A DNA stretch of 64,000 nucleotides from Saccharothrix saharensis. GTDB lineage: Bacteria; Actinomycetota; Actinomycetes; Mycobacteriales; Pseudonocardiaceae. The notes below the pieces were generated by a model, which made no database searches, was not told where the DNA came from, and saw nothing but the letters and a program-made list of their open reading frames with translations. Below are positions 16,520 to 57,798 of this stretch, piece by piece; position 1 is the first letter of the stretch, and each line of letters starts with the position of its first letter. Both the position numbers and the translations under genes were made by a program. Where the stretch lies: assembly GCF_006716745.1 (NCBI RefSeq), contig NZ_VFPP01000001.1, positions 3,286,001 through 3,350,000 on the forward strand, written 5' to 3'.

Positions 16520-17444
16520 TGGACGCTCTCGCCGCGTTGTTGGACGGGCCGCGCGCCCGGGGCGCGTTCCTCATGCGCACCGTCCTGGACCCGCCGTGGT
16601 CACTGCGCATCGAGGACCGCGCGCCTCTCACCGTGGTCGCCATGGTGCGCGGGGACGGTTGGCTGCTGCCGCACGACGGTGACCCCGTGCCGCTGCGCGC
16701 CGGTGACGTCGCGGTGCTGCGCGGGCCCGACCCGTACGTGCTGGCGGACGACCCTGCGACGCCCGTGCAGGCGGTGGTCCACCCCGGCGAGATCACCACC
16801 ACGCCGGACGGCGCAGCGTTGTGCGAGCAGTGGGGACTGGGCGTGCGGACGTGGGGTGCGAACGCCGACGGGTCCGTGGTGATGCTCAGCGGCACGTACC
16901 AGTTGGACGGCGAGGTGAGCCGCCGGTTGCTGTCGGTGCTGCCGCCGTTCCTCGTGGCGCCGCGCGCGGAGCTGCCGTTGGTGCCCCTGCTGGCCGACGA
17001 GATCACGCGGGACGAGCCGGGCCAGGAGGCCGTGCTGGACCGCCTGCTCGACCTGGTGCTGATCTCCGTGCTGCGGTCGTGGTTCTGCCGGCCGGAAGCG
17101 CGGACGCCGGCCTGGTTCTCGGCGCACGCCGACCCCGTGGTGGGGCGGGCGCTGCGGCTGCTGCACGCCGACCCGGCCCACCCGTGGACGGTGGGTTCGC
17201 TGGCCGAGGCGGTCGGCGTGTCGCGGGCGGCGCTGGCCAGGCGGTTCACCGAACTGGTCGGCGAACCGCCGATGGCCTACCTGACCGACTGGCGCCTCAC
17301 CCTGGCCGCCGACCTGCTGCGCGAACCGTCCGCCACGGTGGCCGCGGTCGCCCGCCAGGTCGGCTACAGCACCGCGTTCGCGCTGAGCACGGCGTTCAAG
17401 CGGGAACGCGGCCTCTCCCCTCCGACCACCGCGCCACCCCGTGA
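16519..17444 (+). CDS. AraC-family transcriptional regulator with a frameshifted 3' end
   Basis: The N-terminal half is a cupin-type sensor (VVAMVRGDGWLLPHDGDPVPLRAG). The C-terminal 100 residues are the double HTH domain (WTVGSLAEAVGVSRAALARRF and VAAVARQVGYSTAFALSTAFKRERG). Just after FKRERGLSP the frame fails to stop and would run on for some 660 codons antisense to glyS. Adding one base to the C4 run at 17417-17420 restores the normal ending SPSDHRATP and a TGA at 17442-17444. This is either a real indel or a homopolymer sequencing error. The stop codon falls inside the first 22-base repeat unit. Confidence 0.82.
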
Positions 17445-17504
17445 GTCGAACGCTCAGGTCCCGAGAGTCGAACGCCCGGGACCCCCGAGTTCAACGCTCA
17501 GGTC
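17439..17504. repeat. three tandem 22-base units (repeat family, site A)
   Basis: Three direct copies at 17439-17460, 17461-17482 and 17483-17504 share the core GAGTCGAACGCTCAGG with small changes (third copy GAGTTCAACGCTCAGG). The array lies between the convergent araC and glyS genes and overlaps the glyS stop codon (17505-17503) and the restored araC stop. Related units occur inverted at 34020-34169 and 57691-57798. Confidence 0.9.
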
Positions 17505-18894
17505 ACGCGCCGATCAGCCGGGCGGCCAGGTAGCCCTCCAGCTGGTCCATCGACACGCGCTCCTGCGACATGGTGTCGCGCTCCCGCACCGTCACGGCGT
17601 GGTCGGTGAGGGTGTCGAAGTCCACCGTGACGCAGAACGGCGTGCCGATCTCGTCCTGCCTGCGGTAACGGCGGCCGATGGCGCCCGCGTCGTCGAACTC
17701 GATGTTCCAGTGCTTGCGCAGCGCGTTGGCCAGGTCCTTGGCCTTCGGCGACAGGTCGGCGTTGCGCGACAGCGGCAGCACGGCCGCCTTCACCGGGGCC
17801 AGCCTGCGGTCCAGGCGGAGCACCACCCGCTTGTCCACGCCGCCCTTGGCGTTGGGCGCCTCGTCCTCGGTGTAGGCCTCCAGCAGGAACGCCATCATCG
17901 GCCGGCCCACGCCCGCCGCGGGCTCGATCACGAACGGCTTGTAGCGCGAGTTCGTGGCCTGGTCGAAGTACGACAGGTCGACGCCGGAGTGGTTCGAGTG
18001 GGTGGTGAGGTCGAAGTCGGTGCGGTTGGCGATGCCTTCCAGCTCACCCCACTCCTGCCCGCCGAACCGGAACCGGTACTCGATGTCGACGGTGCGCTTC
18101 GAGTAGTGCGACAGCTTTTCCTTGGGGTGCTCGTAGTGCCGCAGGTTCTCCTTGGAGATGCCCAGCTCGGTGTACCAGCGCGTGCGCTCGTCGATCCAGT
18201 ACTGGTGCCATTCCTCGTCCGTGCCCGGCTCGACGAAGAACTCCATCTCCATCTGCTCGAACTCACGGGTGCGGAAGATGAAGTTGCCCGGCGTGATCTC
18301 GTTGCGGAAGCTCTTGCCGATCTGGCCGATGCCGAACGGCGGCTTGCGGCGCGACGTGGTCTGCACGTTCAGGAAGTTGGTGAAGATGCCCTGCGCGGTC
18401 TCCGGGCGCAGGTAGTGCAGGCCCTCGTCGGTCTCGACCGGGCCGAGGTGGGTCTTGAGCAGGCCGTTGAACATCTTCGGCTCGGTGTACTGGCCGCGGG
18501 TGCCGCAGTTCGGGCACGGCACGTCGGACACGTCGCCCTCGGCCACCTGCTTGCCGGTGCGCTCGGCGTACTCCTCGGCCAGCGTGTCCTGCCGGAACCG
18601 CTTGTGGCACGAGTTGCACTCGATCAGCGGGTCGACGAACGCCTCGACGTGCCCGGACGCCACCCACACCTCGCGCGGCAGGATCACCGACGAGTCCAGG
18701 CCGACGACGTCCTCGCGGCCGCGCACCATGTAGTTCCACCACTGGCGCTTGATGTTGTCCTTCAGCTCGACGCCGAGCGGGCCGTAGTCCCACGCCGACC
18801 TGGTGCCGCCGTAGATCTCGCCGCACGGGTAGACGAACCCGCGACGCTTGCACAGGCTGACGACGGTCTCGATGCGATCGGCTGCCACGGACAC
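17503..18894 (-). CDS. glyS: glycyl-tRNA synthetase (dimeric type)
   Basis: This class II synthetase charges tRNA-Gly. The 463-residue protein has the eukaryote-like alpha2 form: [27 protein letters not shown] at the N-terminus, class II motif 2 around [10 protein letters not shown] with [14 protein letters not shown], and motif 3 in [18 protein letters not shown]. The anticodon-binding domain ends [16 protein letters not shown]. Zinc-type cysteines are visible in CNSCHKRF and CPNCGTRGQ. The start is GTG 18894, with a second in-frame GTG at 18888. Position beside smtB-zur is as in M. tuberculosis. Confidence 0.97.
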
Positions 18895-34019: not shown

Positions 34020-34169
34020 TCCCGAGCGTTGAACTCACCGGTCCCGAGCGTTCGACTCTCGGGTCCTGAGCGTTCGACACACGCGGCGTGGAGGTAGGGC
34101 CTCCGCGAGAGTCGAACGTTCGGGTCCCGCGTGTCGAACGTTCGGGACCGGTGAGTTCTACGTTCGGGT
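34020..34169. repeat. 3+3 inverted 22-base units (repeat family, site B)
   Basis: Three units at 34020-34041, 34042-34063 and 34064-34085 read TCCcGAGCGTT plus a variable tail. They face three inverted units at 34104-34125, 34126-34147 and 34148-34169. The 18-base centre contains a GGAGG/CCTCC hairpin. The tails are of three kinds: GAACTCACC, GACTCTC and GACACACGC, and the order differs between halves. The whole 150 bases can fold into one long hairpin. The stop codon of the hydrolase gene (34160-34158) is inside it. Confidence 0.92.
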
Positions 34170-57690: not shown

Positions 57691-57798
57691 TGTTCCGAAC
57701 GCTGAACCCGGGTGTTCCCGACGTACGACACACGCGTCCCGAACGGAGGACTCTCACGGGAGTCCTCCGTTCGGGAGCGGTGTGTCGTGCGATCGGGC
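57691..57798. repeat. repeat family site C with a 17-base perfect hairpin
   Basis: Units at 57691-57712 (GAACCC tail), 57713-57736 (GACACACGCG tail) and 57737-57758 (GACTCTC tail) are followed by inverted units 57759-57780 and 57781-57798. The inner arms 57737-57753 and 57760-57776 pair perfectly over 17 bases with a 6-base loop. The element begins one base before the chitinase stop codon and lies ahead of the nitronate monooxygenase gene. Confidence 0.9.

Follow-up and report, generated by a model that had tools for sequence, protein, structure and literature searches.

A genome-wide family of 22-bp repeat arrays behind stop codons in Saccharothrix, possibly protein-bound gene-end boundaries

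The window, by which we mean the whole 64-kb stretch of DNA analysed here, carries three small arrays of 22-bp units at gene ends: site A behind a glycyl-tRNA synthetase gene, site B at the end of an alpha/beta hydrolase gene and site C at the end of a family 18 glycosyl hydrolase gene, the neighbouring genes being identified by Pfam. Units in one orientation form an arm, and the arms are as follows.

17436..17501, minus strand: site A, a single arm of three direct 22-bp units
17480-17501, minus strand: first unit of site A, GTTGAACTC, adjoining the glycyl-tRNA synthetase stop codon at 17503-17505
17436-17457, minus strand: last unit of site A, containing a TGA at 17442-17444
34022..34087, plus strand: left arm of site B, three units (34022-34043, 34044-34065 and 34066-34087), the first being GTTGAACTC
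34088..34101, no strand: centre of site B, 14 bp separating the facing arms
34102..34167, minus strand: right arm of site B, three units, the first being GTAGAACTC at 34146-34167
57695..57760, plus strand: left arm of site C, degenerate, three units: 57695-57716, GCTGAACCC (first unit, read by eye); 57717-57738, GTACGACACAC; 57739-57760, GGAGGACTCTC
57753..57796, minus strand: right arm of site C, two inverted units, with unit limits set by eye

All three loci lie where a preliminary description of the window had placed them, and its account of site A as direct units and of site B as three units against three inverted ones was accurate. The 14 bp across which the arms of site B face each other correspond to the usual 8-bp overlap of convergent arms plus one unit length, and the first unit of the right arm overlaps the stop codon of the hydrolase gene (34158-34160). 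The central hairpin described for site B follows from its inverted arms but is without covariation in this genome. Site C is a degenerate convergent arm pair whose right arm ends beside the stop codon of the glycosyl hydrolase gene (57799); its 8-bp overlap does make the inner hairpin that had been called perfect, which by eye is near-perfect. The unit length, given as 22-24 bases, is in fact a step of 22 bp, and the core singled out, GAACGTTCG, is one variant of the consensus. The gene facing glycyl-tRNA synthetase across site A ends, as judged by eye, in an AraC-like helix-turn-helix (17300-17444), and a Pfam search of its frame (16821-17444) gave no match. Its last codons seem to be shifted by one base relative to those of relatives, so that the frame lacks a stop codon at the array and continues beyond it.

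The repeat noticed in the window is confirmed as real and as part of a genome-wide family. A 21-base consensus, allowed at most three mismatches, has 212 matches in its own genome (one contig of 8,924,967 bases, 8.92 Mb) and none when the pattern is reversed, while the 12-base word GTTCGACTCTCG has 79 exact matches in 47 places, against none for its control. Scanning 1.283 Mb with a position matrix gave 406 units, grouped into 79 clusters, as against one match on the reversed sequence, and these controls exclude a chance origin. The 1,283,072 of 8,924,967 bases that were read comprise a contiguous 450 kb including the window and further stretches, all of them chosen because matches were present. 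The 450 kb, which were not chosen for arrays, hold 11 of them, and extrapolation from this density gives a few hundred loci in the genome. Within the 64-kb window, a 13-base core with three mismatches occurs no more often than random matching would give (24 occurrences, 24.2 expected); the evidence for a repeat family is the spacing and the genome-wide copies. The places of GTTCGACTCTCG are unevenly distributed, with three in the first 2 Mb and one beyond 8 Mb, together 4 of 47 (p 0.001); given this scarcity, array loci may belong to the chromosome core. The largest array read lies at 3960049-3960351 of this genome and has 13 units, seven and six back to back, with a 17-bp spacer.

Within arms, units repeat at 22 bp, and the only exceptions in the 79 clusters are two steps of 21 bp and one of 44 bp. 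Each unit is an imperfect dyad in this genome, with 0.731 of cells paired, and the later units of an arm have the consensus CTG[A/G][G/A][C/G]GTTCGAC[A/T]C[T/G]CGGG[A/T][C/G]. The first, or cap, unit has AAC where later units have GAC: in arms of at least three units, an A occupies position 10 in 97 of 104 first units but in 1 of 266 later ones. The three ordered tails of the preliminary description fall into place here, since GAAYTC is the first-unit type and GACTCTC and GACACNC are later-unit types, and the order seen at three sites holds throughout the genome. At the two central bases, later units read as in GTTCGAC in 245 of 266 cases and AG in 18, mostly second units. Arms most often have three units; of 127 arms found by the position matrix in this genome, 66 have three, 21 four, 15 five, 13 two and 10 one. 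A motif-based finder, which requires at least two units, gave three units in 74 of 117 arms here (two units in 5) and in 36 of 52 in S. carnea (two in 1), with lower proportions in G054 (13 of 35, and 8 with two) and G166 (9 of 22, and 3 with two), two genomes of one other genus. A second unit with TAGGAC or TGGGAC is commoner in arms of four units (9 of 21) than in arms of three (6 of 66; p 0.001), for which we offer no explanation.

Arms occur singly, back to back (divergent) or face to face (convergent), and 32 of the 79 clusters are single arms, four of these being single-unit matches. Divergent arms of this genome are 16-18 bp apart in 20 of 29 cases, the other spacers being -3, 6 (three), 26, 27 (two), 37 and 93 bp. 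In S. carnea the same range accounts for 12 of 15 spacers, next to -5, 38 and a spurious -34 bp. Records of named species gave 16-18 (seven), 27 (two), 38 and 40 bp. The 15 non-modal spacers of these three sets fit a period of 10.5 bp counted from 17 (mean cosine 0.82, with 0 of 5000 random sets as good), and the classes -5/-3, 6, 26-27 and 37-38 thus join the 16-18-bp mode in one phase; some of these spacers belong to orthologous loci, and the -34 was dropped as a self-overlap. A period of 11 bp gave 0.80 and one of 10 bp 0.67, 12 bp fitted poorly, and 8, 9 and 13 bp did not fit. Outside the tested sets, 19 spacers from other relatives were 0, 6 (three, one being a locus of this genome), 16-18 (ten), 20, 24, 28 and 60 (two) bp, of which 0, 20 and 24 (3 of 19) are off phase, and those of G166 were 17, 17 and 48 and those of G054 -1, -1, 0 and 41 bp. 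Convergent arms of this genome share 8 bp in 10 of 12 cases. The same overlap was found in 6 of 7 pairs of S. carnea, in all five from the named species and in 7 of 9 from other relatives, while all six pairs of G054 overlap by 3 bp.

Of the 79 clusters, 48 lie between convergent genes, 30 between genes of the same direction and one, a single-unit match, between divergent genes, against a background of 215 convergent, 739 same-direction and 206 divergent among 1160 neighbouring gene pairs; gene calls came from our own codon-usage script rather than from annotation, and the script did not call the gene opposite glycyl-tRNA synthetase at site A. No cluster is contained entirely in a called gene. 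In 55 of 76 cases, the last unit has its edge at most 5 bp from the stop codon that it faces; 27 edges fall at exactly -2 and ten more, outside the 55, at exactly -9, and at both positions the unit itself provides stop-codon bases. First-unit edges lie at most 5 bp from a stop codon in 14 of 37 cases, and TAA is over-represented at arrays (14 of 86 vs 67 of 1180). S. carnea has a similar pattern, with 16 of 30 arrays between convergent genes and one between divergent genes (background, 48 of 257 pairs convergent) and median distances of 0 bp to 45 stops vs 99 bp to 15 starts. In G166, 2 of 7 arrays lie between convergent genes and the median distance to stops is 1 bp; placement is looser in G054, which belongs to another genus (11 convergent and 2 divergent of 21; medians of 16.5 bp to stops and 202 bp to starts). 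Most convergent pairs are without an array, which is held by 6 of 82 in the unselected 450 kb. A fixed polarity of arms toward incoming transcription was considered and dropped, because single arms between tandem genes point both ways.

Relatives were searched with a pattern that required the core CGTNSGACWCNCG twice at a 22-bp step and nothing else. This periodic pattern was detected in 15 of 25 genomes of the genus, of which 13 had at least 64 matches and two had one or two, while ten had none; it was present in 17 of 249 genomes of the family. A search of 296 class genomes, just two of them family members, found it in the window's own alone. Reversed controls gave no matches in the genus and family searches, and one class genome gave two. 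Named records with the repeat, in 40 stretches, were from Saccharothrix luteola, S. carnea, S. deserti and Saccharothrix sp. NRRL B-16348. The core is spelt GTTCGAC in this genome, GTACGAC in G054 and GTTGGAC in G166, while S. carnea has a mix of GTTGGAC, GTACGAC, GTAGGAC and GTTCGAC. Placement and the 22-bp step are kept despite this respelling, the step also in two genomes of another genus. Arms also start with AAC in loci L225, L226 and L229, from other genera, but AAC recurs in a later unit of both L225 and L226; the arms of G054 and G166 start with GAC.

Presence and absence vary between close relatives. A glycyl-tRNA synthetase tree unites 11 of the 13 array-rich genomes with one array-free genome in a single group of weak support and places the remaining two as a pair elsewhere, so that three state changes are needed. 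At the end of this gene, comparison by eye revealed arrays of differing spelling in G000, G014 and G017, three bases between facing TGA codons in G010 and G015, short gaps without an array in G006, G019 and G023, and an apparent ordinary hairpin behind the stop in G004, G005, G013 and others, which have no array at this site. A same-site comparison yielded 38 rows (28 distinct sites) in which a relative has an array and both flanks were found in the stretches of this genome, a sample biased by the choice of most of those stretches for their arrays. Units are present here by the strict motif in 32 rows and four more (two sites) proved to be degenerate arrays when read; for one row (from G009) the site in this genome has no array, and one row exceeded the length that could be displayed. 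One row comes from G054.

Period, arm size, cap unit, phasing, placement and dialects are shown by these data. The account of them that we tentatively favour, somewhat short of an even chance, is that they are helically phased operator arrays that are bound by a putative protein and terminate or insulate gene ends; we infer the protein, its binding and the effect on transcription. Each 22-bp unit would be a putative operator, an imperfect dyad with half-sites around a variable two-base centre. An arm of usually at least three units, set two helical turns apart and carrying a distinct cap unit, would allow cooperative protein binding along one face of the DNA, and two arms would be joined as a dyad at helically phased distances. 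Once bound, an array behind stop codons could form a boundary that stops or insulates converging transcription, acting as a protein roadblock rather than as an RNA hairpin. Sites in DNA are favoured because of the two-turn step, the three-unit peak, the cap unit, the phased dyad and a geometry that stays constant within the genus while spelling changes. A boundary role, most likely to terminate or insulate gene ends, is suggested by position, directly behind stop codons and mostly between convergent genes. The core dialects may reflect co-evolution of site and protein, aided by local duplication and gene conversion.

Several observations weigh against phased operators. The 22-bp steps between spacers could come from decayed central units, and an 11-bp step fits almost as well as one of 10.5 bp. 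The off-phase spacers in relatives, the other distances in G054 and the lack of an AAC first unit in G054 and G166 also count against this account, as do the good folding of inverted arms and of single arms in G054, G166 and the sample from this genome and the signs of pairing in S. carnea. The search for a binding protein, which covered one transposase family, found none.

These folding results lend themselves to a different explanation, possible but on the whole unlikely, in which the arrays are bidirectional RNA terminators or 3'-end stabilisers whose hairpins stop the polymerase or protect the mRNA. Such hairpins would be formed by inverted arms, or by a single arm in which unit 1 pairs with unit 3 around unit 2. 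Stable hairpins are indeed predicted at sites B and C (z -8.0 and -7.5 relative to shuffles), and site A folds moderately (z -3.2 on the unit strand and -1.9 on the other). Among three-unit arms, 56 of 66 fold better in the unit sense than in antisense, and their common hairpin, of the single-arm form just described, pairs 0.88 of cells in its register vs 0.21-0.52 in slid registers. In four-unit arms, transferring the first unit to the end weakens folding in 19 of 21 cases and raises the mean energy from -43.7 to -40.5. Folding of single arms exceeds that of shuffles in G054 (mean z -4.9, five arms), in G166 (-2.9, five arms) and in 28 arms sampled from this genome (-2.1). Position between convergent genes is also what would be expected of bidirectional terminators, and several relatives without an array at the glycyl-tRNA synthetase end have the apparent ordinary hairpins described above.

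Covariation, however, was sought in four ways in this genome and not found. The common hairpin has 0.882 of cells paired vs 0.885 after shuffling, with 456 of 500 shuffles as high, and the unit hairpin 0.731 vs 0.732. Left and right arms of the same locus match each other no better than arms of different loci in 28 divergent (p 0.26) or 10 convergent pairs (p 0.76), the core of divergent arms giving p 0.064. In S. carnea, divergent arms do match at the same locus (core, p 0.002; whole unit, p 0.024) and the unit hairpin has 58 paired double changes vs 44.7 in shuffles (15 of 500 as high); either RNA pairing or local copying could give both results. A role of the first unit as pairing partner of the last was tested in silico and rejected for three-unit arms. 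Their mean energy is -29.9 when intact, -29.9 when a copy of the second unit stands in place of the first and -30.1 when the first is shifted to the end. Single arms fold no better than shuffles in G019 (mean z -0.4, six arms), G008 (0.3, two arms) and G009 (-0.4, two arms), and the frequency of single arms in this genome, some with one unit, also counts against hairpins. None of 104 arms is followed by TTTT within 20 bases, although such runs are rare in this genome (0.24% of random 20-mers), and pairing does not explain the 10.5-bp spacer classes or the constant 22-bp step. The arrays share with intrinsic terminators their position behind stop codons and an ability of inverted arms to form an RNA hairpin, but differ in having no T-run, frequent single arms and spacing rules that fit the DNA helix, which bears out the earlier impression that this is not a simple terminator.

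It is distinctly improbable, in our view, that the arrays are a REP-like or miniature mobile repeat which is tolerated only behind genes and owes its unit rules to a mechanism of mobility, such as transposase sites. High copy number, changing spelling and presence or absence at the same site in relatives would all suit a mobile element, and adjacent units within arms are alike (112 arms; 0 of 1000 shuffles as low). REP elements and BIMEs are described as short imperfect palindromes, some 20-40 bp long, that occur in many copies, chiefly downstream of genes, and in direct and inverted clusters, and GTAG REPs lie downstream of genes and can provide stop codons (PMC3733652). The present arrays likewise lie downstream of genes and away from promoter regions, and have in common with REP elements as presented there their size, gene-end position, copy number, direct and inverted clusters and stop codons supplied by the element. 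They differ in the direct 22-bp tandem step, the usual number of at least three units, the cap unit and the absence of tag, transposase and covariation; letter counts over 406 units and 104 arms gave no GTAG or CGTC tag at the unit end. A REP transposase was rejected as mobiliser because the Y1_Tnp gene (PF01797) is absent from this genome and, of the five among 25 genus genomes that have it, just three belong to the 13 that are array-rich, although the association with Y1_Tnp is described for GTAG and not for CGTC families (PMC3733652). Target duplication is not evident at 35 divergent arrays (2.77 vs 2.66 shared bases, p 0.17), while all 72 arrays have a slight excess (3.36 vs 3.17, p 0.03). 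Many sites are common to species though respelled, with the sampling bias noted above, and neither the three-unit peak nor the cap unit would be expected under neutral spread.

We file the arrays as extragenic palindromic repeats in the broad sense, with REP-like repeats as the nearest known kind and without membership of a named family. No entry of Rfam 15 matched any part of the window at E up to 5, and the main text of the REP survey has no mention of Actinobacteria (PMC3733652). The words 'repeat', 'palindrom', 'tandem' and 'terminator' are absent from the S. espanaensis genome paper (PMC3469384). A literature search at the level of titles and the starts of abstracts, with most subscription papers outside its coverage, found no description of a 22-bp array family. 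The original suggestion of a rule-governed intergenic family without a recognised name has held for its copies, its unit order and its relation to gene ends, and neither result named beforehand as counting against it, a lack of more copies or assignment to a known repeat family, was obtained.

Uptake-signal sequences with dialects, kept by biased DNA uptake and only secondarily at gene ends, are a very improbable explanation. The Neisseriaceae likewise have dialects that leave a core unchanged, with many copies and with inverted pairs where genes end, but their uptake sequences are thousands of short words, many inside genes (PMC3630211). They lack phased multi-unit arms and are far more numerous than the few hundred phased-arm loci extrapolated here, where no cluster lies entirely within a called gene.

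Like CRISPR arrays, these are short direct repeats with a regular step, but their units abut without spacers and form many small dispersed arrays. A likeness to the plasmid clt sites of Streptomyces was briefly considered, and a literature search gave it no useful support. Iterons and the end sites of transposases such as Tn7 TnsB and phage Mu consist of direct 20-22-bp sites on one helical face in groups of at least three; the present arrays differ in being dispersed at gene ends and in having no clear target duplication when divergent. Protein sites, RNA hairpins and mobile repeats could also be combined in one element.

Taking the protein-site account further, we consider it rather doubtful, though worth stating, that some Pseudonocardiaceae have a dedicated, fast-evolving putative DNA-binding protein that forms helically phased filaments on capped arrays of at least three operators behind stops, making boundaries or roadblock terminators whose spelling co-evolves with the specificity of the protein. 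Eukaryotic ribosomal genes have roadblock terminators, and if the proposal is true, bacteria have a genome-wide, protein-bound gene-end system of similar logic. To our knowledge, it is not well understood by what means transcription stops where convergent genes are closely packed in high-GC Actinobacteria, in which T-run terminators are scarce. The arrays are of interest in this respect as a lineage-specific element that keeps a strict geometry at many gene ends while its core spelling changes between species. The presence or absence of an array at the same site in close relatives provides a direct comparison of one gene pair with and without the element, and, should the arrays be recognised by a protein, the joint evolution of that protein and the dialects would offer a clear example of specificity turning over at many sites simultaneously.

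Two loci in relatives have additional features. At locus L183 of G009 (about 541-582), the centre of a divergent array carries a short near-palindromic insert, GTTCTTTACTCGCGAGTGAAGAAC. In G045, which represents another genus of the family (g22) and in which two loci were examined, one arm of the divergent array at locus L167 (right arm ending near 685) is followed by the T-rich, terminator-like TTATTTTTGTTTTTT and the other arm is without it.
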